Positions 205-12,010 of a DNA stretch of 20,862 bases are shown here, in pieces (positions within the stretch are counted from its first letter, which is position 1; each line of letters starts with the position of its first letter). The stretch spans positions 1-20,862 of IMG/VR virus record IMGVR_UViG_3300049893_001072; one strand, written 5' to 3'. The stretch is from a virus. A program made the position numbers and the translations under genes. The notes beneath the pieces are model-generated. The model saw only the letters and a list, made by a program, of their open reading frames with translations, was not told the origin of the DNA and searched no databases.

Positions 205-570
205 TTAAAACGTTATGTTAAACAATTCGTAAATAATTACCGGCACTGCAATTAGTTTTAATGCCCAATAAGCTGATGGAAATTGATTACCAAGCCTGTC
301 AATAAAACTATTTGTGCCTATGTAAAAAGGACTTTTACTTCTGAGTAAATTAAGTGTTAAATCAAACAACACCCAAAAAGAACAGGTTACAAAAAAGAAC
401 CATTTAGATGCTGATTCAAAATCTGATACATCTAAAATAAAACCACCATAGGCAATTGCAAAATTAGCCCTGATAATTGTTAACCATAAATAATCAGGTA
501 CGGATTTCTTTTTCTCAATCCACCACCAATTAATAACAGCGTCTATTAAAATGTATATTATCCAAATCAT
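205..570 (-). CDS. Predicted four-helix membrane protein, function unknown
   Basis: This 121-residue protein is strongly hydrophobic, with probable membrane segments near residues 3-18, 28-46, 57-76 and 101-117, separated by short charged loops (EKKKS, LLRSKSP). I see no catalytic motif and do not recognise the family. Its ATG at 568-570 overlaps the TGA of the DUF5675-like gene by 4 bases (ATGA), and its TAA sits one base before the holin-like gene, so it belongs to the lysis end of the operon. It could be a second holin, an antiholin or a superinfection-exclusion membrane protein. The sequence does not decide between these. Confidence 0.75.
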   Translation of the reverse strand: MIWIIYILIDAVINWWWIEKKKSVPDYLWLTIIRANFAIAYGGFILDVSDFESASKWFFFVTCSFWVLFDLTLNLLRSKSPFYIGTNSFIDRLGNQFPSAYWALKLIAVPVIIYELFNITF

Positions 571-959
571 TTCTTTGTAATTTCAAGTTCAAAACTATCT
601 GGTAAATTCTTAGCTAACCAATCCATTTTAACAGTAGAGCTTTCAAGTATTGGCTGATTGCTGTTTACTTCTGCAAACCTGCTCCCTACCAAAATGCAGC
701 CCTTTGAGTGAATTGGTTTAACTCCCCTATGAATTAATATGCCTGACCTACCAGGTACATTTAAAACCCTGAAATAAACGTAAGGTCTATCCGCTTTAGG
801 TGGTTCTTTAATTACTTTATATTTACCTTCAGGAATGCATGAAACAGAACGAGAGTTATTTTTCCACGGGAGCTCTAATGTTTTAGCAATCATTTCACCT
901 TTATCATCATAAAGGCTGCCTAACGTTCTATCACTTAGATAAACTCTTTCCAGCTTCAT
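567..959 (-). CDS. DUF5675-like protein, candidate cell-wall-acting lysis protein
   Basis: This 130-residue protein has the pattern I associate with DUF5675: TLELPWKNN near residues 27-35, SCIPEGKY at 40-47, and a core ILIHRG...SKGCILVG at 74-92. His77, His84 and Cys88 in that core, with the local sequence S-K-G-C-I, resemble the His/Cys active-site region of YkuD-type L,D-transpeptidases. A peptidoglycan-related activity is therefore plausible but unproven; the family itself is uncharacterised. There is no signal peptide. The gene overlaps the end of the upstream 48-residue coiled-coil gene by 29 bases and shares a 4-base ATGA overlap with the downstream membrane-protein gene. Its position immediately before two membrane proteins supports a place in the lysis module. 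No canonical endolysin such as a lysozyme or amidase is visible in this window. Confidence 0.75.
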   Translation of the reverse strand: MKLERVYLSDRTLGSLYDDKGEMIAKTLELPWKNNSRSVSCIPEGKYKVIKEPPKADRPYVYFRVLNVPGRSGILIHRGVKPIHSKGCILVGSRFAEVNSNQPILESSTVKMDWLAKNLPDSFELEITKK

Positions 960-1080: not shown

Positions 1081-2388
1081 CTATGTAGTTAGTGCTGTGT
1101 AAACCCCGTTCTGCCATCTTGTTTGCCCTGATGCATTTAGATGTACTGAATCTGATAATAAAGTATCTCCACCATTATCTTTTATATCTGTATATAAATC
1201 GAAAAACTTTGTATTGTATGTTGTTGCAATTGATTGATAGGCTGTATTGTATTCAGATAAAGTAGTTGCATTTGCCCCACTCTGCTGATAAGGTGGAGAA
1301 CAAATACATATTTTACTTGCATTATAACCATATCCAATAAGTCCACTTACTATTGTTTCAAGGCTACTCCCAGCAGTGGATGCTGTTACAGAATTTAAAA
1401 TATCATTAGTTCCATACTGTAAAACAACATAATCTGTATATGGTCTTGTAACTATTTGAGATTCCCATCTTGATATTCCATTATTGGTTCCACTTGTTAA
1501 TCTTGTTCCGCTTATACCAAGATTTAAATCAGCTACATTTAAAGATGATGATAATGCTCTTAAATATGATGTAACTCCTTGCCCAACAGTATTACTATCT
1601 CCAAATCCGCAAATGTTTTCAGTCGCTGTATCCGATGATAAATTATAATTACTATAAAGACTATTAATTACAGATGTGTTTATTGATTCGCTTAAATTTT
1701 GCGATGACATACATACCGCTTTTACACCACCGGCCATATTAAATCCTCCGCTAACAAAACCCATTAATCTATATATTAATGTAGCTTGTCCTGCAAAATT
1801 TGATGTCTTTGTTAATAAAGTTCTATCATTAATTTTTGCAGAAAGTGTATTGCCATTACGCCTTATTGATAAAATTGAATATCTATTACCAGTTATTCCG
1901 GCAACCCATCTTTCGCGAGCAACTCCACCTGTTGCCATCTGGATACTATCATAAGATGATGATGGAGCGTCATGCATTATATAATCACTATTTGTATTTG
2001 CTGCTAATAATATTTTTGTTATAGCCCCTGTATCTTTAAAAACAATATATAATGAAAAAGTTGTAGCACTTATTTCAGATGCTCTCAAAAGCTGGTCATT
2101 ACTGCCATCGAAAATAGGTATACCATCTGTTAATAATGGCCTATTCGCTGAAGTTGATTGAGTCCATTTTGTTCCAGATATTTCGGCCCATTCAGTTATA
2201 TTACTACCTGATAGAGTAAAATATGATGATGAGTCAGATTGTAGATTTATTAAATCCATATAAGGGTCTATGTTAAAAGAACCACCCGACCACCAATCAG
2301 TTAATATTTTTTTATTCATAATTTCTTCTTCTATGCATGAACTTAATCCTAATAAGCCTAAAACCTGTAAAAATTCTCTTCTATGCAT
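1081..2388 (-). CDS. SGNH/GDSL hydrolase with lectin-like domain and Tat/lipoprotein-like leader
   Basis: This 435-residue protein has two domains. Residues about 45-255 look like a LamG/concanavalin-type beta-sandwich (EWAEISG, PIFDGSNDQLL, TTFSLYIVF). Residues about 257-435 form an SGNH hydrolase: block I GDSN with Ser265 as nucleophile, block II LNLGISG with Gly291, block III GTND with Asn328, and block V DSVH with Asp413 and His416. SGNH enzymes of this type often remove acetyl or other acyl groups from glycans. From the first ATG the protein starts with a twin-arginine motif (RREFLQ, residues 3-8), a short hydrophobic run and a lipobox-like LSSC ending at Cys18, followed by IEEE, a pattern of an exported lipoprotein. 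Met24, preceded by an A-rich leader, is an alternative start that removes this leader. The gene overlaps the upstream fibre gene by 8 bases, so a receptor-glycan esterase carried on the tail is an alternative to a host-surface lipoprotein. Confidence 0.88.
   Translation of the reverse strand: MHRREFLQVLGLLGLSSCIEEEIMNKKILTDWWSGGSFNIDPYMDLINLQSDSSSYFTLSGSNITEWAEISGTKWTQSTSANRPLLTDGIPIFDGSNDQLLRASEISATTFSLYIVFKDTGAITKILLAANTNSDYIMHDAPSSSYDSIQMATGGVARERWVAGITGNRYSILSIRRNGNTLSAKINDRTLLTKTSNFAGQATLIYRLMGFVSGGFNMAGGVKAVCMSSQNLSESINTSVINSLYSNYNLSSDTATENICGFGDSNTVGQGVTSYLRALSSSLNVADLNLGISGTRLTSGTNNGISRWESQIVTRPYTDYVVLQYGTNDILNSVTASTAGSSLETIVSGLIGYGYNASKICICSPPYQQSGANATTLSEYNTAYQSIATTYNTKFFDLYTDIKDNGGDTLLSDSVHLNASGQTRWQNGVYTALTT
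2327..2338 (-). repeat. 12-base direct repeat, copy within SGNH leader
   Basis: The minus-strand sequence ATGCATAGAAGA occurs here and again at 2377-2388, where it forms the start of the SGNH gene (M-H-R-R). In this copy it is read in a different frame and encodes the Cys18-Ile-Glu-Glu part of the leader. The two exact copies are 50 bases apart. No function is implied; it may simply mark how the leader arose. Confidence 0.8.
2377..2388 (-). repeat. 12-base direct repeat, copy at SGNH start codon
   Basis: This is the second exact copy of ATGCATAGAAGA. It contains the ATG start codon and first codons of the SGNH hydrolase and lies across the last codons of the upstream fibre gene. Confidence 0.8.
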
Positions 2389-3736
2389 TCGTTAATGCTC
2401 TCCATCTGCTTGATGTGCCATCATAAAAAAACATAAGACTCTCATCAGCCTGTAACGTTATATCTGCATTTAATGCAAATCTATTACCGGCTGTACTTGA
2501 TGCAGATTCGTCTTTAATCACTAAATCAAATGAACCAACATTTGCAATTATTAAAAGCCTACCAGATGTACCGCCTGATAAACCTGTTAAATCCCTGCTT
2601 GCATCTGTTGATAGTCTTAATATTGAAGCCCCATAAGGCGAACCTCCTGTATTAAATCCAGTTGGATTATAGTCATTTTGATTGGATGTTATTTGTGATG
2701 GGCTTAATATAGATGTCCACTCTACATAACCTGAGTCATGTTTAAAAGCCACTTGTGCTGCACCTACTGCTGTATTTGTAGGGTTCCAGTAAAATCCTCT
2801 ACTTATACCATTAGCACCACCTGTTTGATTTATTATAGGATTGGCTCTCCAAAAATTAAAAATGGCTGTTCCTGATGTTGGTGCAAATGCAGATACAGAT
2901 GAAGATATATTAAAATAATCAAATGTTCCGCTCGTTGATGTTACGTTTGATGAATATTGAAAAGACACAACACTACCGGCAGTAGAAGTAAATAACATAC
3001 CACCAGAATGTATTATACTTCCACTTGCCCTCCCCATTCCAAAACCAGAACCAGAAGTAATACCAAATCCAATCCCAGCTGAATTTAAAACATTTATCCC
3101 CCCTGTTGACAAAAAAGAAACAGAACTTGTAAATGACCCATTTATAAAATGTTCTATTAATAATTGACCTGTAATAACAGATGTTCCCGTTGATGGTCTT
3201 TGAAATAAATACGTTTCAGCGTCTTGACTTGAGGCAGTTGCATTACTTTTCCAGGCTGCACCCTTAAAAGTTAATGCTCCTGAAAATTGGATTTGGTCTG
3301 CAACAGTTGATGTAGCTGCGGTTGTGTTTTCAAGTTTTATTTGTCTTGTTACAACCTGTTTTATATTATCTAATTGATATGAAATTAGGTTACCGGCCTG
3401 TGCGATTGTATTTGATGCAGTTAAAGTACCGCCTGAAGCTAACAACCAAGCCAAGCCAGTATTTAACTTACCTGTGAATTGAGTTTGTATAGAACTTGTT
3501 ACGCCCTTAACATAACTTAACTCTGTAAGACTTGGATATGTAGCAGTTGTAAGACTTCCTAAAGACGTTGCACCTGTGAAGTAAGCTATCTCATTGGTTG
3601 TTCCTGAGCCGGTTAAATTACCTGACCCACCACTACCAGTATTTGTTGTTAATGCAGACAATACGGATTTTATATCACGCCTTTTTATTTTTGTGCGGAT
3701 ATAATCAATCTCTAAATTGCTGTTTATATTACTCAT
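2381..3736 (-). CDS. Tail fibre / receptor-binding-like structural protein
   Basis: This 451-residue protein has fibre-like composition: a short basic N-terminal helix (residues about 10-27, IDYIRTKIKRRDIK), a Gly/Ser linker (SGGSGNLTGSG), and a segment with the wording EIAYFTGATSLGSL and YPSLTELSYVKGVTSSIQTQ that I associate with phage fibre shafts. Long beta-rich stretches of Ser, Thr, Gly and Asn follow, ending in a C-terminal region with ADESLMFFYDGTSSRWR. The N-terminal plan, basic helix then flexible linker, mirrors the other fibre at 12408-13586, which suggests both attach to the virion in a similar way. It overlaps the upstream beta-rich gene by 4 bases (ATGA) and the SGNH hydrolase gene by 8 bases. 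The receptor cannot be inferred. Confidence 0.75.
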   Translation of the reverse strand: MSNINSNLEIDYIRTKIKRRDIKSVLSALTTNTGSGGSGNLTGSGTTNEIAYFTGATSLGSLTTATYPSLTELSYVKGVTSSIQTQFTGKLNTGLAWLLASGGTLTASNTIAQAGNLISYQLDNIKQVVTRQIKLENTTAATSTVADQIQFSGALTFKGAAWKSNATASSQDAETYLFQRPSTGTSVITGQLLIEHFINGSFTSSVSFLSTGGINVLNSAGIGFGITSGSGFGMGRASGSIIHSGGMLFTSTAGSVVSFQYSSNVTSTSGTFDYFNISSSVSAFAPTSGTAIFNFWRANPIINQTGGANGISRGFYWNPTNTAVGAAQVAFKHDSGYVEWTSILSPSQITSNQNDYNPTGFNTGGSPYGASILRLSTDASRDLTGLSGGTSGRLLIIANVGSFDLVIKDESASSTAGNRFALNADITLQADESLMFFYDGTSSRWRALTNA

Positions 3737-4917: not shown

Positions 4918-6500
4918 TCTTCCACCTCTTTAATTTTCATTTCAGCCCAATCTAACATATCCTTGCCACCCCATGCAGCAAATAAAACAGCATCACAAGA
5001 ATCCATAAACGGAGTATTCTTGTAAATTTCATTTCTTACTAAGAAATTCCTTACTCTTTTAACTTGCTTGTAACTTAATGGCTTGCCTTCAGCGATTGTT
5101 TTAGCTACATCCCATCCCATTTTAGTACCGCATCCAGGTTTTTGCTCATTCCATTTAATAGCATCGGAGGCATTTTTACGTGCCTTCTGTGGGTATTGAG
5201 TATATAAAAGATTTACCGGCCCTTGCGGTGTTGGTGTTGGTGATTCGATGATTTCAATATTGGTATTTTTCTTTATCCAGTTAAGTTTTGTTTCTGTATT
5301 AAGAACTTCCCAAATCTTATCTTCAATAGACTCATCTGCAACAAATGGAGTATGGTCTACAATCTCAAAATCAGTATCAACAGGATAATACCATTCTTTA
5401 AATATCTTTTTGTAAGTCTGCTCTAAAATAGCTTGCCATTTAGCCGCCCTTTGTTGCATTAACTTAACGGCAGCCATGATTGTATTACCGTCACCACCTA
5501 AACTTACCCCCTCGTGAATGTTTGCAAGAATAGCCGGTACTTTTGTAGCTATTGTAATGTTCTTAGTCGTTAGATTTTGTAACGTATCTAATATCTGGCT
5601 ATTAACCGATGTCGGGAAAGGCTCTACTACTGGGAACTCTTCCTTATTCTGTGCCCAAAATGCCATAATATTACCTACCCGCTCAGTGCCTGCGAACTTT
5701 TCGCCCATCATTTCATCAAACACTTCTCCAATAGTCTTAACGGCTTGTTGTTTGTTGTTATCAGAATCGAAGGCAGTGTCATCCGGATTTGTAGCCGGTG
5801 CGTTAGGGTTACCAATCAACTTAAAAATAGCGGATTGTAAGAATCCGTTTTTAAGGTTCTCTTTATGAAACTCACCTATTCTGGCGTCAACCTCCATCCA
5901 GTTTTTAGCTGAATAGTAAGAAGGCTGAGGATAAAACCTGCTTAAAGCTCTTGTAGACCCCCAGTAAAATATATGCCCTTTGAATTTCTTACCGTCTTTC
6001 TTTAACTGAGCCATAATAACAGCTGGGTCAGGATTAAAAGAATAGTAAGTTTCTGTTTTTTGTTGCTTGTATTTGTCTGTTCCGAAATAAGGATTGTACT
6101 TTATTTCATTAATTACCCCGTAACTATCAGGAATACCTAAACGGCAGTTTTCAAAAGGAACAAAAAATATCTGTGAAATCTTAGCCTCTGGGGTATACTT
6201 TATATTTAAAGATAATCCCTCATACATGGCCAAAGATTCAGCGCACAAATGATTTATTTCGTCTAATGTTTGGCCTTGCGAATTGACAACTAACTTGCCT
6301 ATGTCGGTAGAAAACCCATCACCCTGTATAAAATCTGAAATAGTGCTGATACATGAAGCCGCGGCAGGGCTTTCGTATACTAATTTTGAAAGTTTTAAAG
6401 GAAAATTATCGTTTGACCCGTAAATTAAATGGTCATCAACCTTTGAACTGTAAGGATTTTCTAAAGGTTGTCTTCTGACGTAGTTTTTAAATCTTTCCAT
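4914..6500 (-). CDS. Portal protein with an extra C-terminal helical domain
   Basis: This protein, 528 residues from the ATG at 6498-6500, has features of a phage portal: an N-terminal segment with DHLIYGSNDNFP, a clip/wing-like middle part, an Asp-rich insertion near the centre (NPDDTAFDSDNN), and a helical stem region (LGGDGNTIMAAVKLMQQRAAKW) followed by IFKEWYYP. The frame stays open upstream to a TTG at 6557, but the ATG is preferred because the first residues of the longer form lie inside the preceding glycosyltransferase gene and TTG starts appear nowhere else as the best choice. Even so it overlaps that gene by 40 bases. The last 93 residues (encoded by about 4917-5195) form a separate domain beginning YPQKARKNA and ending in AAWGGKDMLDWAE, resembling a domain found on other phage head-morphogenesis proteins. 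Portal identity is supported by the adjacent connector candidate but not proved. Confidence 0.78.
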   Translation of the reverse strand: MERFKNYVRRQPLENPYSSKVDDHLIYGSNDNFPLKLSKLVYESPAAASCISTISDFIQGDGFSTDIGKLVVNSQGQTLDEINHLCAESLAMYEGLSLNIKYTPEAKISQIFFVPFENCRLGIPDSYGVINEIKYNPYFGTDKYKQQKTETYYSFNPDPAVIMAQLKKDGKKFKGHIFYWGSTRALSRFYPQPSYYSAKNWMEVDARIGEFHKENLKNGFLQSAIFKLIGNPNAPATNPDDTAFDSDNNKQQAVKTIGEVFDEMMGEKFAGTERVGNIMAFWAQNKEEFPVVEPFPTSVNSQILDTLQNLTTKNITIATKVPAILANIHEGVSLGGDGNTIMAAVKLMQQRAAKWQAILEQTYKKIFKEWYYPVDTDFEIVDHTPFVADESIEDKIWEVLNTETKLNWIKKNTNIEIIESPTPTPQGPVNLLYTQYPQKARKNASDAIKWNEQKPGCGTKMGWDVAKTIAEGKPLSYKQVKRVRNFLVRNEIYKNTPFMDSCDAVLFAAWGGKDMLDWAEMKIKEVEE

Positions 6501-7285
6501 GTAGGTATTCCGAATACGTTCGGGCACTTTCGTAAGTGCTTTCCGTAAAATTCGCAATAATACCCGTCTTTAGCGTGAAGTAAATCGTTCAGAACTGTGG
6601 ACTTTTCAATGTTCTGCCTTGCGGTGCTGTTTCTTATTTTCTTTTTTATGTCTTTTCTAACGTAACTGTAATGATGCATTACAATTTGCGACCATTCTAT
6701 ACCTGAAGTGAATGATAACTGCCTTGTGGGGTCTACCCTTATTTGCTTTTTAATCGTATATGGTACATTATCCATTACCGACCAGGCATAAGGCATATTT
6801 CTATTTAAAACGTGATTACAATCGACTTTATTTAAAAATGGGACTAAGGTAATATCGTACCCTATCGTTAACTCAGGGCTATTAAAATACACCTGAGAGC
6901 GACATATTAATCCGTTTGTGCCTGAGTTTAAAACCCTTTCTTTTTCTTTTAAAAACTCCTCTTGTAAATAGAACTCATCGCAATCAATATCTAAGAAATG
7001 AGTATATCCTAACCTTTTAGCTGTTACCAATCCAAGTTCCCTTTTTGCTCTTTCGTTTTCTGCCGGTTGTTTTGATAGGTCTGGTTTATAGTAAATAGGG
7101 TAAACGTTATTTCGTGTTATTGAGGCGATATAATTAACTGAATCAGCCACAGAATAATCATGCTCACCTGTATTGCTTGTGGTCTGGTAAACTATTATAA
7201 TACCTTCAACACATGGGCTTATATTACTTACGCTAAACGGCAGTAATTCTATCCCATCGTATACGTTAAATATTGCGGCTACCAT
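6461..7285 (-). CDS. Glycosyltransferase with DxD motif (GT2/GT92-like)
   Basis: This 274-residue protein opens with a Rossmann-like segment (MVAAIFNVYDG). It carries the sequence KRELGLVTAKRLGYTHFL leading into DIDCDEFY at residues 99-106, in which Asp101-x-Asp103 is the expected metal/nucleotide-sugar binding motif. The combination of a lysine/arginine-led helix and THFLDIDCDEFY is typical of GT-A enzymes of the GT2/GT92 type acting on an activated sugar in the cytoplasm. A His-rich segment MHHYSYVRKD follows near residue 203. No membrane helix is present. It overlaps the zinc-ribbon gene upstream by 7 bases and the portal gene downstream by 40 bases, so portal expression is physically tied to this enzyme. 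Donor and acceptor cannot be predicted. Confidence 0.8.
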   Translation of the reverse strand: MVAAIFNVYDGIELLPFSVSNISPCVEGIIIVYQTTSNTGEHDYSVADSVNYIASITRNNVYPIYYKPDLSKQPAENERAKRELGLVTAKRLGYTHFLDIDCDEFYLQEEFLKEKERVLNSGTNGLICRSQVYFNSPELTIGYDITLVPFLNKVDCNHVLNRNMPYAWSVMDNVPYTIKKQIRVDPTRQLSFTSGIEWSQIVMHHYSYVRKDIKKKIRNSTARQNIEKSTVLNDLLHAKDGYYCEFYGKHLRKCPNVFGIPTWKDLKTTSEDNL

Positions 7286-7470
7286 TTATTTATTTCGCAT
7301 GATTCATCAGGTTCACTTGCTTTAGCTTTCAAAGGACATCCGCATAAATTACAAACCCCGTAATAGTTATGCGTACATGATTTACATATACGTAAACGTC
7401 TGCGCATTAGTTTGAGCTCTCTGCCTACTATAAGATTAAACCAACCTCGTAAAATATGCCTAATATTCAT
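7279..7470 (-). CDS. Small cysteine-rich zinc-ribbon-like protein
   Basis: This 63-residue protein has a basic N-terminal helix (residues 1-26) followed by Cys29-x2-Cys32, Cys40-x2-Cys43-x-Cys45 and Cys58, and it ends in INKW. The paired CxxC motifs suggest one bound zinc ion. I associate short proteins with this spacing and a terminal KW with Bacteroidota phages, but not with a defined function. The gene overlaps both neighbours (11 bases upstream, 7 bases downstream) and lies between two glycosyltransferase-like genes and next to another small protein. An adaptor or nucleic-acid-binding role are both possible. Confidence 0.7.
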   Translation of the reverse strand: MNIRHILRGWFNLIVGRELKLMRRRLRICKSCTHNYYGVCNLCGCPLKAKASEPDESCEINKW

Positions 7471-7702
7471 TTAAATATTTTTTGACTTCATTCCAATATT
7501 GAAATATAGGTGCATCAGGATTACCATTACATGTTAACCACCAAGATTGTATAACCTCATCACAAACCTTTAAAGCACTTCTTTTAGCTGATTCTTTACT
7601 GGCTTTCTTAAATACATTACCCCAGTCCGCTGTTCCTTCCATCTCTGAGAACTCATAAAACGTTTCATAGAGTTCATCGGCTTTTTCTTTTGGTGTTTTC
7701 AT
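7460..7702 (-). CDS. Small helical phage protein, unknown function
   Basis: From the ATG at 7700-7702 this is 80 residues, beginning MKTPKEKADELYETFYEF, with a second helix SAKRSALKVCDEVIQ near residues 39-53 and a C-terminal WNEVKKYLNEY. The ATG is chosen over an upstream TTG because it forms a 4-base ATGA overlap with the preceding glycosyltransferase-like gene. Proteins starting TPKEKAxEL with a downstream AKRxALxxxDE helix are familiar to me as very common, uncharacterised small phage proteins of Bacteroidota. Its place inside the glycan cassette may be incidental. Confidence 0.7.
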   Translation of the reverse strand: MKTPKEKADELYETFYEFSEMEGTADWGNVFKKASKESAKRSALKVCDEVIQSWWLTCNGNPDAPIFQYWNEVKKYLNEY

Positions 7703-8358
7703 TGGCTTAATAAACAAACTGAATCACTAAATTTAATTACTTCTCCTGTTTCTAATCTTACTCCATCATGAGCAGCATAACAGAAGAATGTTTTATGTCC
7801 GGTTAATATTTTCATATTCAAATCATAAATTAAACAACTTGCTACGCTTTGGTCATGGCGGTGGTCATTCCATTTCCCATGATATAAATCAGTTAACCCT
7901 ATGTAGTCTTTTAAAAACTTCTGAGTAATGTCATGGTCTACATTAAAAGCCATACAACAGGCCATAATCATGTTGATATTCATGGCCTCCTGCCTGGTTA
8001 TACCAAAGTATTGAAGGCATTTGTCATTTGTCCACATCCCCAAACTATGACCGATGTTATTAAAAAAAGCATAACCATGCTGCGCAATATGGTCAAAAAG
8101 TGGGTGTATCGGTTTGATAGCAATAATCGGACTATCACACCATATAATTTGACTGTAACCAAGCTCAATCGCTTTCTTAATGGCATAGGATTTAAACTTA
8201 TAAGGTACCACTGAATGATGTTCACAGTTAATCTCTTTATAATCCGTAAACATTAACAGGTCTGCATCTGTATTGTCTTTTAAAGACTGTTCAAGGCGTT
8301 TTAACTTACGCTTATAATCTCCAGCTCCATCAGCAAAACTAACTATGCAACGCTTCAT
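7699..8358 (-). CDS. Glycosyltransferase-like protein with atypical CDS motif
   Basis: From the ATG at 8356-8358 the protein has 219 residues, starting MKRCIVSFADGAGDYKR. The frame extends further upstream (ATG at 8391, TTG at 8415), but those starts lie deeper inside the preceding gene and the conserved-looking core begins at the chosen ATG, which overlaps that gene by 20 bases. Key segments are FTDYKE, YKFKSYAIKKAIELGYSQIIWCDSPI and HRHDQSVASCL. The layout of a helix ending in IIWCDS at the expected metal-binding position, then a late HDQS, recalls small retaining-type sugar transferases of the GT8/GT32 fold, although the usual DxD is replaced by C-D-S. Donor and acceptor are unknown. It is embedded among other glycan genes, which supports the assignment. 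Confidence 0.65.
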   Translation of the reverse strand: MKRCIVSFADGAGDYKRKLKRLEQSLKDNTDADLLMFTDYKEINCEHHSVVPYKFKSYAIKKAIELGYSQIIWCDSPIIAIKPIHPLFDHIAQHGYAFFNNIGHSLGMWTNDKCLQYFGITRQEAMNINMIMACCMAFNVDHDITQKFLKDYIGLTDLYHGKWNDHRHDQSVASCLIYDLNMKILTGHKTFFCYAAHDGVRLETGEVIKFSDSVCLLSQ

Positions 8359-8941
8359 AGGCTTCTGATTTAGTAGTTCTGTTATATTCATGTAAAATAT
8401 TATCTGAATGCGCAAAGGTACGGCAGTTCTTTAATGCCTGTTTTATAAATCCTGTGTCTTCATCCCAATTAGCATCAGGGAAATTAACACCTTCCAATAC
8501 GCCACGCCTGAAGGCGCATACATGGTACGGCCTTCTGTTTATAATCCCTGGTTTAGCTTGGTCATCTAACTTTGTTTTGAAGTGCATCTTTACCACCATC
8601 CAGAAGTTATCAAACTTGGATATGTTATTGAAAGTGCATACATCTGCCCCTTTATTAGCAAGCCTTACCAAAGTTTCAACGTAATCCGGGCTTATATTGT
8701 CGTCATCATCAAGCCAACAAACATACTCACCTTTTGAAAGCTCTAAACCTTTCTGCCTTTTACGGCCTATTGAATCACCACCGTCTTTAAACTTAGGGCT
8801 GTTTACTTCTACTATTTCAATTTGTCCTAATGTCGGATGGTACTTTTGACAATAGTCTATTTGTGATTGGACTTTTGTCTTTAGCTTTTGAAAACTCTCT
8901 GAACGCTCAGGAATGGTAATCATTATAATACTCAGAATCAT
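8339..8941 (-). CDS. GT2-family glycosyltransferase (second of a paralogous pair)
   Basis: This 200-residue GT-A enzyme begins MILSIIMITIPERSE, has GRKRQKGLELSKGEYVCWL leading into LDDDD at residues 77-81, the metal/nucleotide-sugar binding motif, and a late WDEDTGF that supplies the acidic catalytic position of inverting GT2 enzymes. Its overall plan and the phrases TIPER and (W/Y)VC-x-(I/L)DDDD match the enzyme at 10156-10713, so the two are probably paralogues with different donor or acceptor use. It is shorter than many GT2 proteins and has no membrane segment, so it should act in the cytoplasm. The start overlaps the FkbM-type methyltransferase stop by 4 bases. Confidence 0.85.
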   Translation of the reverse strand: MILSIIMITIPERSESFQKLKTKVQSQIDYCQKYHPTLGQIEIVEVNSPKFKDGGDSIGRKRQKGLELSKGEYVCWLDDDDNISPDYVETLVRLANKGADVCTFNNISKFDNFWMVVKMHFKTKLDDQAKPGIINRRPYHVCAFRRGVLEGVNFPDANWDEDTGFIKQALKNCRTFAHSDNILHEYNRTTKSEAYEALHS

Positions 8942-9540
8942 TTAGCGTAAATTAAGTTTTCTGCACTCGTATAAATAACATTGAACCCATAAAGTATTCG
9001 GTCAAATTCTGACTTTACTTCTGGCTTACTATTCCACTCAGCACACACTAACTTTACATCTGTAAAGTCCATCTGTTTCATAATTTCAACTTCCATTCCT
9101 TCCACGTCAATACTTACAAAATCAAACTTCTTAAACTTTATCCTGTTTAAAAAAGTCTTATATCTGTAGCATTGAACCTCTACATCAGTATACTGTGTTG
9201 TTGACTTCCATCGGTTTGTTTCTTCAGGTATTAACGTACTCAATAAACCTGAATCAGATTTGCCTAAATGGGAACCGCTATCTTTAAGAATTACTTTGTC
9301 GTTAGTGGTTCCTAAAGCAAACGGATAACAGTAAACGTTTTTATTACCCTTGTAAAGCTCTTGTAATTTAACAAAAGCAGTTGGCGAAGGCTCAACACAT
9401 ACCCCACTCCATCCCTGCTCCGCCAATGCTCTTGTATTACTCAAGGTTATCCCGTCATTGCTTCCAATATCGAGAAACACACCTTTAAAATCTTTGAAGT
9501 AATCTTTAATTACTTGCTCTTCGTTATTCTGTGAATACAT
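8938..9540 (-). CDS. FkbM-family methyltransferase
   Basis: From the ATG at 9538-9540 this is a 200-residue class I SAM-dependent methyltransferase. It has an N-terminal SQNNEEQVI segment, the SAM-binding motif FLDIGSNDG at residues 22-30, VCVEPSP at 48-53 as the acidic motif II region, and SIDVEGME at 143-150, which is characteristic of FkbM enzymes. The family O-methylates sugars or small-molecule hydroxyls. The ATG is preferred over a TTG at 9552 because it forms a TAATG stop-start overlap with the TylF-like gene. Two different O-methyltransferases in succession beside glycosyltransferases suggest that a sugar in the built glycan is methylated at more than one position or step. Confidence 0.9.
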   Translation of the reverse strand: MYSQNNEEQVIKDYFKDFKGVFLDIGSNDGITLSNTRALAEQGWSGVCVEPSPTAFVKLQELYKGNKNVYCYPFALGTTNDKVILKDSGSHLGKSDSGLLSTLIPEETNRWKSTTQYTDVEVQCYRYKTFLNRIKFKKFDFVSIDVEGMEVEIMKQMDFTDVKLVCAEWNSKPEVKSEFDRILYGFNVIYTSAENLIYAK

Positions 9541-10178
9541 TATTTTTTCCAATAAGTTATACCATTATTTAAAACACATTGAGGTTGGTCATCATAAGCA
9601 TAGTTACCTAAATATTCATAAAATGCTTTCTTGCATCCGGCAAGATTCCAGTCATCTATAATCATAATACCGCCTTTTACTAACTGAGGGTAAAGATGTT
9701 CTAAACACACCTTAGTACTATCATAAAGGTCACCGTCTAACCTTAAAACAGCTATACCATTAGGCGCATCCCATAAAGGAACGGTGTGCTGAAACCATCC
9801 CTTGATTAAAGTGTAGTTTTCTAATCCCCATCGCTCAAAATTCTTTTCTACATCTTCAAATGAATGGACCGTAATGCCTGAGCTTTCTAAAACTCCATCC
9901 TTGCCTTTAACTTTCTTACTCATACCAGGCTGTTGGTCATCTTTAGGACCAGCCCACGGGATACCCTCAAATGAATCAAAACCGTAAGCATGACGGCCAG
10001 CGTAAGCCATAGCCGCTAGGTTGTTTCCGGTAGCTACTCCGCACTCTACAAAATCACCTTCAATATTATTATCAATTACATATTTAGCGCATTGATATGT
10101 TAATTCTATTGTCTGCCAAGTAGAATAATTAGGCTCAATGATTCTGCTAATCTGTTTATTTTTGGGTTCTGAAATCAT
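9540..10178 (-). CDS. TylF/MycF-type macrocin O-methyltransferase family protein
   Basis: This 212-residue protein has the TylF signature: EGDFVECGVATG at residues 40-51 (SAM-binding loop), YGFDSFEGIP at 65-74, RLDGDLYDST at 146-155 and IIDDW at 173-177, where the aspartates are the expected metal ligands. TylF enzymes methylate sugar hydroxyls in antibiotics, and relatives are common in surface-polysaccharide clusters. It overlaps the upstream GT2 gene by 23 bases and shares a stop-start junction with the FkbM gene. Length is slightly shorter than bacterial TylF proteins but all core motifs are present, so it should be active. The acceptor sugar cannot be named. Confidence 0.9.
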   Translation of the reverse strand: MISEPKNKQISRIIEPNYSTWQTIELTYQCAKYVIDNNIEGDFVECGVATGNNLAAMAYAGRHAYGFDSFEGIPWAGPKDDQQPGMSKKVKGKDGVLESSGITVHSFEDVEKNFERWGLENYTLIKGWFQHTVPLWDAPNGIAVLRLDGDLYDSTKVCLEHLYPQLVKGGIMIIDDWNLAGCKKAFYEYLGNYAYDDQPQCVLNNGITYWKK

Positions 10179-10713
10179 AATGATATAAATGCTTTGGAAT
10201 ATGTACGCTCGTTTTTATAAGGTTTAAATCTTTTATTCTTGTAGCCCATGCGAAATCTTCACCTTGCCAAACTTCAGGAAATCTAACCTGATTAGCTATT
10301 GATTTTCTAATAACCGCTAAGTGATTAGGATACCTGAAAAACATATACTTACCCTTCTCATGCCTTGCCTCGTATCTTTCACCTAACTTAATAACCCAGT
10401 CTACCCTATTCCTGCCGTTCTCAGTATACCAACCCTCAAAGGTTACGCAGTCAGGATTCGATTCTAAAGCCTTTAGGATGTCGTCAATATATGTAGGAGC
10501 TATCCAGTCATCGTCATCAATAAAACACACCCATGCCCCGGAAGATTGATTTATAAGGTCGTTTCTTTTCTTTCCTGTTGGCACATGCTTTGGCCGTGGG
10601 TCTATTAAAAACTCCACCGGCTTACCTTCCATTTGAGGCGTTAACAAATTACTCAACCTTTTGAGGTAATTTGCCCGCTCAGGAATGGTGCACGTGAGGA
10701 TTGATAATTTCAT
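10156..10713 (-). CDS. GT2-family glycosyltransferase
   Basis: This 185-residue protein starts MKLSILTCTIPERAN, has KKRNDLINQSSGAWVCFI leading into DDDD at residues 66-69, followed by Trp, as the sugar-nucleotide and metal motif, and WQGEDFAWATRI near residues 149-160, whose Glu-Asp pair matches the catalytic acid/base region of GT2 enzymes. No transmembrane helices follow, so it is a soluble short GT-A enzyme. The ATG overlaps the upstream stop by 4 bases. It is the clear counterpart of the enzyme at 8339-8941. Confidence 0.87.
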   Translation of the reverse strand: MKLSILTCTIPERANYLKRLSNLLTPQMEGKPVEFLIDPRPKHVPTGKKRNDLINQSSGAWVCFIDDDDWIAPTYIDDILKALESNPDCVTFEGWYTENGRNRVDWVIKLGERYEARHEKGKYMFFRYPNHLAVIRKSIANQVRFPEVWQGEDFAWATRIKDLNLIKTSVHIPKHLYHYDFRTQK

Positions 10714-11360
10714 AGCGGAAACCCTTGTAATCTTCTTTTCTCAAATAATCTTTCGCCCTGCTTCCAGTATCCTTCACTTTTCTTATATGTTTCATCCATT
10801 GGCGCTTTACCTACGCTAGGATGTTTATGTTCAAACTTTAAATGCCGTGCATATCGTAACCATCCGTTACGTTTTACAACCTCGTATAAGTCGCAATCAC
10901 AAAACATGCTTTTATAATCAGGATGCCAGAAATAACCCAAAGTATTGTAAAGTTCTTTTGACATTATAGGGATAGTCAATACCGGAACTTCAAACTTCTG
11001 TAAACAGTCATCAACCTTAATAAGAAATACTGAGCTTGGAATATGTGTTTTTATTTCGTGCTCTAATAGCTGTGCCCAATTATCAGGGCAATCAAAATCG
11101 TCACTAAGGTAAATAAGAACATCACCAGTAGCAAGTTTAGCCGCATGGTTGGTAGCCTGAACAACACAATCGTTATCGTTCATGGTAACCTTTAAATCCA
11201 TGCCGGTACTTAATTCTAAATAATCAAACTTCTTAGAATCGCTTGTGTCTAACGATAGTATCCACTCAACATCACCGCCTGATTTTTCAATCCATTTTTT
11301 AGCTGTTTGAATCGCTTGCTGTGGTCTGCCTCGGCTTGGATGGATTAAACTAAACCTCAT
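10710..11360 (-). CDS. Glycosyltransferase, GT-A fold, SDDFD motif
   Basis: From the ATG at 11358-11360 the protein has 216 residues, beginning MRFSLIHPSRGRP, a start typical of GT2-like proteins that bind a nucleotide sugar. It has ATNHAAKLATGDVLIYL leading into SDDFD at residues 86-90 as the metal-binding motif, and a histidine-containing segment FEHKHPS near the C-terminus. The ATG is chosen over a GTG at 11396 because it gives the 4-base ATGA overlap with the preceding gene that most genes here show. It lies first among the clear glycosyltransferases of the cassette after the DUF4422-like protein. The transferred sugar is unknown. Confidence 0.82.
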   Translation of the reverse strand: MRFSLIHPSRGRPQQAIQTAKKWIEKSGGDVEWILSLDTSDSKKFDYLELSTGMDLKVTMNDNDCVVQATNHAAKLATGDVLIYLSDDFDCPDNWAQLLEHEIKTHIPSSVFLIKVDDCLQKFEVPVLTIPIMSKELYNTLGYFWHPDYKSMFCDCDLYEVVKRNGWLRYARHLKFEHKHPSVGKAPMDETYKKSEGYWKQGERLFEKRRLQGFPL

Positions 11361-12010
11361 AAATATTCTACTTTCAAATTCTGCGTTTCTAACCACTGAC
11401 TAAAAAACCTTTCACAGATAAAAGGATGCATAGGGTAATAACCTACCCCCAAATCAATCTTAGCCTTATCTGTTAATGGTTCTCTTTTCAATTTTGTATA
11501 GTTTGCGTTCTGCCAACATAGTTTGTTTATCTCAGCATCATTTACCATAACATCCATGCATGGTATTAAAAACTCTGTCACATATTTCTTATAAATTTGT
11601 GACTTGGCTATAAAAGCATTTTGATACACCGGATATTTAGGTTCTTTGGGGATTATGTTTACCGCTTTTACCATAATTTTAGTGAGTAGCTCGGTAAAAC
11701 CAGGATGCCAAACCTCAGCGCCCGCTAACATCTTGTGAAATTTAGAACTGCGGCTGAAGGAAAGCACGTCATAATCCTCTTCAAGTACTTCCCTAGTTAA
11801 TTTTCTGATGTTTAACCGCATTTTTGAACGCAAAGCCCATGAAGTAACGGATATTTTATCGCAATCAGCCTCTAAAACCAGCTTTTTTATGACTGCATTC
11901 TCAAAAAATGGCGTTAGTTTGTCGTTAAAGTAAGGTATCGCAAATGGATACAGATGTGAAAGCTGTAAATCTCGGTAGTAAATCTGATAAAATTTTATTT
12001 CCTGAGCCAT
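11357..12010 (-). CDS. DUF4422-like putative glycosyltransferase
   Basis: This 217-residue protein has KFYQIYYRDLQLSHLYPF at residues 6-23 and a C-terminal pair of segments, NAFIAKSQIYKKYVTEFLIP (131-150) and HPFICERFFSQWLE (195-208), that parallel the conserved end of DUF4422 proteins, which occur in polysaccharide and glycan clusters. The parallel is from memory of the family pattern, not a search. No DxD motif stands out, so if it is a transferase its sugar-binding site is unusual; it could instead be an acceptor-recognition partner. It overlaps the small cysteine protein by 16 bases and the next glycosyltransferase by 4 bases. Confidence 0.5.
   Translation of the reverse strand: MAQEIKFYQIYYRDLQLSHLYPFAIPYFNDKLTPFFENAVIKKLVLEADCDKISVTSWALRSKMRLNIRKLTREVLEEDYDVLSFSRSSKFHKMLAGAEVWHPGFTELLTKIMVKAVNIIPKEPKYPVYQNAFIAKSQIYKKYVTEFLIPCMDVMVNDAEINKLCWQNANYTKLKREPLTDKAKIDLGVGYYPMHPFICERFFSQWLETQNLKVEYL

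Follow-up and report, generated by a model that had tools for sequence, protein, structure and literature searches.

A phage SGNH hydrolase gene with a predicted lipoprotein leader, and recurrent export leaders downstream of the portal in related loci

Phage enzymes that trim surface sugars are usually regarded as parts of the virion. Among animal viruses, the haemagglutinin-esterases are envelope proteins that combine an SGNH receptor-destroying esterase with a lectin domain. For phages, an SGNH enzyme has been described in the tailspike gp41 of the Acinetobacter phage Aristophanes, which deacetylates the capsule, and cells treated with the purified protein cannot be infected by the same phage (PMC8471582). 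Phage proteins may also be placed in the host envelope: Llp of phage T5 is a lipoprotein that stops re-adsorption and superinfection (PMC9586334), and five genes of unassigned function in Porphyromonas gingivalis phages have Q-rule signal peptides, their products being suggested to modify the host outer membrane (PMC10367356). We report here on a phage gene in which an SGNH hydrolase is preceded by what is probably a lipoprotein leader.

The SGNH gene and its surroundings

The window, that is, the whole stretch of DNA that was analysed, corresponds to an entire virus record of 20,862 bases. Its genes lie mostly on the (-) strand, in a series consisting of a tape measure, a ClpP-like protease (Pfam CLP_protease, 1.7e-31), a capsid-position protein, a tail-repeat protein, a sugar-gene cassette and a portal-like protein, followed by a fibre-like gene with a Phage_depo_C domain, the SGNH gene, a DUF5675 gene and small membrane proteins (Table 1). 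The stop of the fibre-like gene overlaps the Met1 start of the SGNH gene by 8 nt. The DUF5675 gene sits at the position of a lysis module and may have a role in lysis. The SGNH gene shares its run with fibre and lysis genes, which makes late expression probable. Portals similar to that of the window were found in 119 phage records, among which 79 are from phages of Bacteroides, 24 of Phocaeicola, 5 of Cellulophaga and 4 of Parabacteroides (112 records together); as the similarity is mostly to phages of these genera, a Bacteroidota host is likely.

The part of the window between the tail-repeat and portal genes (6461-12010, (-) strand) holds about eight genes, including glycosyltransferases and methyltransferases (Glycos_transf_2, FkbM, TylF), and a comparable run of sugar genes was seen at the same place in a related locus (L004, 1326-6333).

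Table 1. Positions of features in the window and of Q-rule ORFs in related loci
Feature	Position	Strand	Basis
SGNH hydrolase gene (435 aa with Met1 as start, 412 aa with Met24)	1081..2388	(-)	ORF and Pfam PF13472
SGNH catalytic domain, residues 262-422	1123..1605	(-)	PF13472 (Lipase_GDSL_2), E 3.7e-19
N-terminal region, possible lectin-like (ConA/LamG) domain, unconfirmed	1624..2301	(-)	no library match
Signal-peptide codons 1-17, MHRREFLQVLGLLGLSS	2338..2388	(-)	similar leader in L010 and L007
Cys18 of the lipobox LSSC, predicted to be lipidated as the +1 residue	2335..2337	(-)	sequence rules
IEEEI, acids at +3 to +5, encoded by ATAGAAGAAGAAATT, a purine tract immediately upstream of Met24	2320..2334	(-)	sequence
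Met24, alternative start with typical initiation context	2317..2319	(-)	score 3.54
First copy of the 12-bp direct repeat, covering the start codon of Met1	2377..2388	.	ATGCATAGAAGA (minus-strand sense)
Second copy of the 12-bp direct repeat, covering the codon of Cys18	2327..2338	.	ATGCATAGAAGA (minus-strand sense)
Tail-fibre-like gene with Phage_depo_C domain, upstream of the SGNH gene	2381..3736	(-)	Pfam PF25692, 1.6e-6
DUF5675 gene, downstream of the SGNH gene	567..959	(-)	Pfam PF18925, 3.1e-23
Q-rule ORFs, portal-to-lysis slot of related loci	L005 15091; L006 5524; L008 9467; L010 8389; L012 7305		
Q-rule ORFs, portal-to-lysis slot of related loci	L016 14131; L021 6453; L022 16431; L029 13022, 15947, 16826; L057 15230; L060 15137		

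The initial annotation had described the gene as an SGNH hydrolase with an apparent lipoprotein leader. Its reading frame and strand, the leader MHRREFLQVLGLLGLSSCIEEEIM, Cys18, Met24 and the catalytic residues were all recovered, and the identification as an SGNH hydrolase is solid: the PF13472 match is accompanied by a match to PF00657 (3.9e-9), and the SGNH/GDSL catalytic set is complete, with Ser265 (block I), Gly291 (block II), Asn328 (block III) and Asp413/His416 (block V). The lectin-like domain proposed for residues ~30-255 fared less well, as this region had no Pfam match at E <= 0.05 and no meaningful match in the PDB; a single-sequence AlphaFold model of the protein was unusable (pLDDT 32). 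A lectin reading, based on what we take to be a resemblance to ConA/LamG domains, is plausible by eye only.

Neither the whole protein nor its halves had a match in the phages collection at E <= 1e-5 (seven weak matches were obtained at E <= 10, the best with E 0.06) or a homologue in viral_contigs or genome_contigs. Related loci were collected by other means: a portal-profile scan of the viral contigs gave the 60 used below, while a portal-based scan of genome_contigs gave no relatives, and scans based on the capsid and neck proteins gave only L002, L003 and L004, which end short of the SGNH slot. A PF13472 scan of the records of 50 of 61 relatives yielded L028 and L044 alone, both of them below the cut-off. 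It missed L010, whose leader-bearing esterase came from the leader scan. Four duplicates (L001, L003, L064 and L065) were omitted from the first leader scan, from the BLASTP comparison of the window with L010 and from the repeat count in relatives.

The leader and its counterparts

The first 23 residues of the SGNH protein read as a lipoprotein signal, with the features that sequence rules ascribe to SPII signals: a positively charged n-region, a hydrophobic h-region and a lipobox ending in Cys. Pure chance was rejected as an explanation of this leader. Among 2,000,000 random in-frame extensions built with the codon usage of the window, a lipobox combined with a Tat motif had a frequency of 5e-7 (1.9e-4 for the lipobox and 6.9e-4 for the Tat motif taken singly), and the combination was absent from all 291,902 open frames generated with a dinucleotide model, its definition having been written after the leader had been seen.

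A similar leader was found in two related loci. In L010, it heads a SASA esterase (6815-8386; PF03629, 2.5e-6) whose gene has a TTG start and comes directly after a small fibre gene; the leader consists of MNRKAFLSLLGLTS, followed after the predicted cut by CIED-M and continuing as CIEDMSLF... In L007 (4319-), where the gene is cut by the contig end and again has a TTG start, the leader ends in CIDD-M and differs from that of L010 by one residue. BLASTP aligned the window and L010 proteins over the leader only (1-31 with 1-28, E 0.003 in a four-protein comparison). This leader pair scored 55, whereas no score above 39 came out of 5000 shuffles and none above 31 when the window leader was compared with 13 other leaders of the group.

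Codons were then compared. For the window and L010 leaders, 5 codons are identical, 7 differ synonymously (one of these being ATG/TTG) and 6 non-synonymously, with a gap made up of whole codons. Between L007 and L010, 3 of 18 leader codons are changed (1 amino acid), as against 41 of the 67 codons that follow the leader (16 amino acids) and 45 of 139 codons in the upstream fibre gene (5 amino acids). The pattern between L007 and L010, together with the synonymous changes and the whole-codon gap between the window and L010, argues for a leader that is translated and selected, whether the window and L010 leaders are alike by common descent or by convergence. With a near-matching leader, altered at synonymous positions, at the head of a different SGNH enzyme, the lipoprotein leader of the initial annotation gains support, and we conclude that it is probably real. 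L010 and L007 are close relatives, so that there are at most two independent cases, the window included. The L007 gene has no longer start, because its TTG is immediately preceded by an in-frame stop codon.

Searching viral_contigs with a DNA pattern independent of the protein body gave 35 stretches, of which only two were real leaders, namely those of L010 and L007 met again as L084 and L100; the leader family is therefore small or diverged. A tblastn search of the phages collection with leaders only gave one chance match for the window leader (E 5) and none for that of L010.

The initial annotation had also ascribed to the leader a Tat-type twin arginine and an acidic signal for surface export. 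The RR of the window leader is RK in L010 and L007: Tat export was rejected as a conserved feature, and because of this replacement Sec/SPII is the simpler reading and appears to fit better. Acids at +3 and +4 are common to all three leaders (EE, ED and DD), as in the lipoprotein export signal (LES) consensus SDDDD of B. fragilis (PMC5080379). However, the residue at +2 is Ile in all three, whereas in the tested minimal LES the acids must be preceded by a residue that is polar or basic; the window leader has no Lys or polar residue there, and has Glu where Asp is preferred (PMC5080379). The cluster was rejected as a clear LES. As the EEE codons of the window form a purine tract before Met24, there may be a second reason for the acids.

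The choice of start was assessed with a start-context model trained on 242 phage starts, among them the Met1 site itself, against 3586 internal ATGs. Met24 scored at the 45th percentile of the 242 starts (Table 1) and Met1, with -2.14, at the 2.5th; in L010, the TTG (2.69) and Met19 (2.06) were both plausible. An in-frame Met follows 4 to 6 residues past the Cys in all three leaders. Its presence in every leader found makes a two-product gene a serious possibility, with a shorter, leaderless second product possibly made from Met24. A start at Met24 would leave a gap of 61 nt after the upstream stop; most neighbouring genes of the window overlap or nearly touch. The start region also contains a 12-bp direct repeat, ATGCATAGAAGA, whose copies are 50 bp apart and which is the sole repeat of such kind within 60 bp in the window. 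If the stretch between the copies were absent, the upstream stop would fall 12 nt before Met24. The repeat was not seen in L010 or L007; in the relatives, 71 close repeats of such kind were counted in 758 kb, about one per 10.7 kb.

Export leaders downstream of the portal

A rule-based classification of signal peptides was applied to the ORFs with a length of 150 aa or more in the 60 portal loci. The rules were home-made, fixed after a first look and adjusted between the first leader scan and the slot count; the class following the Bacteroidetes Q rule, in which a signal peptide is followed by Gln, was singled out after the first scan. Of the 188 ORFs located downstream of the portal, 13 had a Q-rule signal peptide, one had a lipoprotein signal (L010) and one another kind. 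Upstream of it, none of 437 ORFs was of the Q-rule or lipoprotein class, and seven matched a loose third class and look like false positives. On the other strand, the corresponding numbers were 0 of 89 and three. Fisher's test gave 1.2e-7 for the 13 Q-rule ORFs downstream of the portal, a value that overstates independence because the loci include near-duplicates (L021 and L022 share identical sequence, L016 and L057 a 93% identical protein). Of the loci, 29 extend 4 kb or more past the portal, and the 13 ORFs fall in 11 of these.

The bodies behind the leaders were, according to Pfam, in some cases of beta-helix, collagen-like or alpha/beta-hydrolase type, and in others without family. The leader-bearing proteins were compared with the ORFs of 42 of the 60 loci, and leaderless homologues were found for several: L005 is matched by L052 (55% identity, beta helix), L012 and L022 by L020, the second exported protein of L010 by L016, and the L010 esterase by L028 and L027. 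An in-frame stop lies just before the start in L052 and L028. As several leader-bearing bodies have leaderless homologues, leaders seem to be gained and lost among the related bodies encoded here. Leaderless SGNH proteins occupy the slot in L027, L028 and L044. On the question of whether homologues start at the equivalent of Met24, which the initial annotation had raised against the leader, the answer is thus divided: the SASA-family proteins of L027 and L028 have no leader, but those of L010 and L007 do. Since both forms exist, the two readings of that annotation, a surface-exported enzyme and a tail-associated one, may be compatible.

Two further observations were made in the slot. Alpha/beta-hydrolase-like proteins occur there without a leader in L028 (16417-17214) and with signal peptides in L014 (15423-16193) and L029 (16826-17713), the L014 and L028 proteins matching with a BLASTP E of 9e-7. 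In L060 (15137-18655), a protein of 1172 aa has both a Q-rule signal peptide and a match to Phage_head_fibr (2.1e-6), an odd pairing of a leader with a virion domain.

Proposed function and comparison with known systems

We give about an even chance to the proposal that the gene encodes an exported, envelope-anchored SGNH esterase altering a host glycan late in infection, where we infer that the leader is used, which way the enzyme faces, what it acts on and what the phage gains. The phage would make an SGNH-type carbohydrate esterase with a lipoprotein signal peptide, and the host Sec machinery (or, less likely, Tat) would export it late in infection, the signal being cut before Cys18 and the Cys lipidated. 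The esterase would sit in the outer envelope of the host, possibly facing outwards, and would deacylate the surface glycan on which the phage relies as its receptor. Progeny would thereby escape recapture by the cell that made them, by the debris of that cell and by neighbours that are infected. In favour of this proposal are the SGNH domain with its catalytic residues, the low chance of the leader motif, the leader counterparts in L010 and L007, the signal peptides downstream of the portal, the portal similarity to phages of Bacteroidota and the effect of the gp41 deacetylase on cells (PMC8471582). Against it count the TTG starts of L010 and L007, the poor initiation context of Met1 beside the typical one of Met24, the leaderless SGNH proteins of the slot, the Ile at +2, the home-made nature of the signal-peptide rules and the negative searches for a homologue of the whole protein.

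Were Met24 the only start in use, the product would be an ordinary virion tail esterase that modifies the receptor, and the leader would be untranslated or a relic. For a virion tail esterase as such, only the position of the gene after the fibre-like gene counts; the use of Met24 alone would agree with that position, with the percentiles of the two start contexts and with the leaderless SGNH proteins in the slot of L027, L028 and L044, and SGNH tailspikes are established (PMC8471582). It would not account for the near-matching leader of L010 and L007, with its synonymous changes and whole-codon gap, for a leader motif with a chance of ~5e-7, or for the gap that Met24 would leave after the upstream stop among closely packed genes, and we consider it rather unlikely. 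We take the same doubtful view of the use of both starts, whereby a weak Met1 would yield a little envelope lipoprotein and a strong Met24 a cytoplasmic form that joins the virion tail. The Met that follows the Cys in all three leaders would suit such an arrangement, as would the weak context of Met1 beside the typical one of Met24, the two plausible starts of L010 and the leaderless homologues of the L010 body, which show that a leaderless version of it is possible. However, the cases are two at most if only independent ones are counted, a nearby Met is not rare, and the location of the leaderless forms in virions is a presumption.

The 12-bp repeat suggests a different origin, in which a small duplication or insertion just upstream of an old start would have lengthened the reading frame and so produced the leader by chance. 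The two copies lie over Met1 and the Cys18 codon, no other such repeat occurs in the window, and removal of the intervening stretch would bring the upstream stop close to Met24. This origin seems very improbable: the similar leader of L010 and L007, both without the repeat, is not explained by it, and repeats of this kind are met in the relatives at the frequency given above. In a broader reading, the fibre-to-lysis slot of this lineage of Bacteroidota-type phages would gain and lose export leaders on glycan enzymes. A given family would have no leader in some phages, where it is presumably carried by the virion, while in others it would be secreted or anchored in a membrane; in the window and in L010 and L007, nested starts would yield both forms, so that one enzyme would open the receptor glycan on entry and destroy it on exit. 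We offer this reading tentatively, and think it unlikely to hold as a whole.

Returning to the envelope-anchored esterase, the closest enzyme, Aristophanes gp41, shares with the window protein the SGNH fold and a gene in the tail or appendage region, but the N-terminus of gp41 serves for binding to the virion (PMC8471582) and gp41 lacks an export leader, whereas the window protein begins with a predicted lipoprotein leader. T5 Llp (PMC9586334) and Ltp of a Streptococcus phage (PMC3952083) are phage-encoded lipoproteins of the host envelope that act against superinfection, and the window candidate is alike in predicted type. Llp, however, is a small protein that blocks a protein receptor by binding to it from the periplasmic side, whereas the window protein is a putative enzyme of 435 aa encoded in a late tail/lysis region. 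The P. gingivalis phage proteins (PMC10367356) resemble the slot proteins of the relatives in following Bacteroidota signal peptidase I rules; here, by contrast, the leaders are on glycan-enzyme-like bodies and in one recurrent slot, and that of the window is of lipoprotein type. In the literature searched, no account was found of a receptor-modifying phage esterase tethered in the host envelope, the nearest being PMC10367356.

Such a tethered esterase would be a combined picture: SGNH phage esterases and phage-encoded lipoproteins are both known, and what would set it apart is their combination, made more interesting by the recurrent export leaders of the slot. The slot has matched leader-bearing and leaderless homologues, so the effect of the leader is directly testable. 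The likeness to the viral haemagglutinin-esterases is a functional analogy only, with no homology claimed. If the proposal is true, phages with recurrent export leaders would also remodel the surface of the cell that is being left, which would be a bacterial parallel to the receptor-destroying enzymes of viruses.
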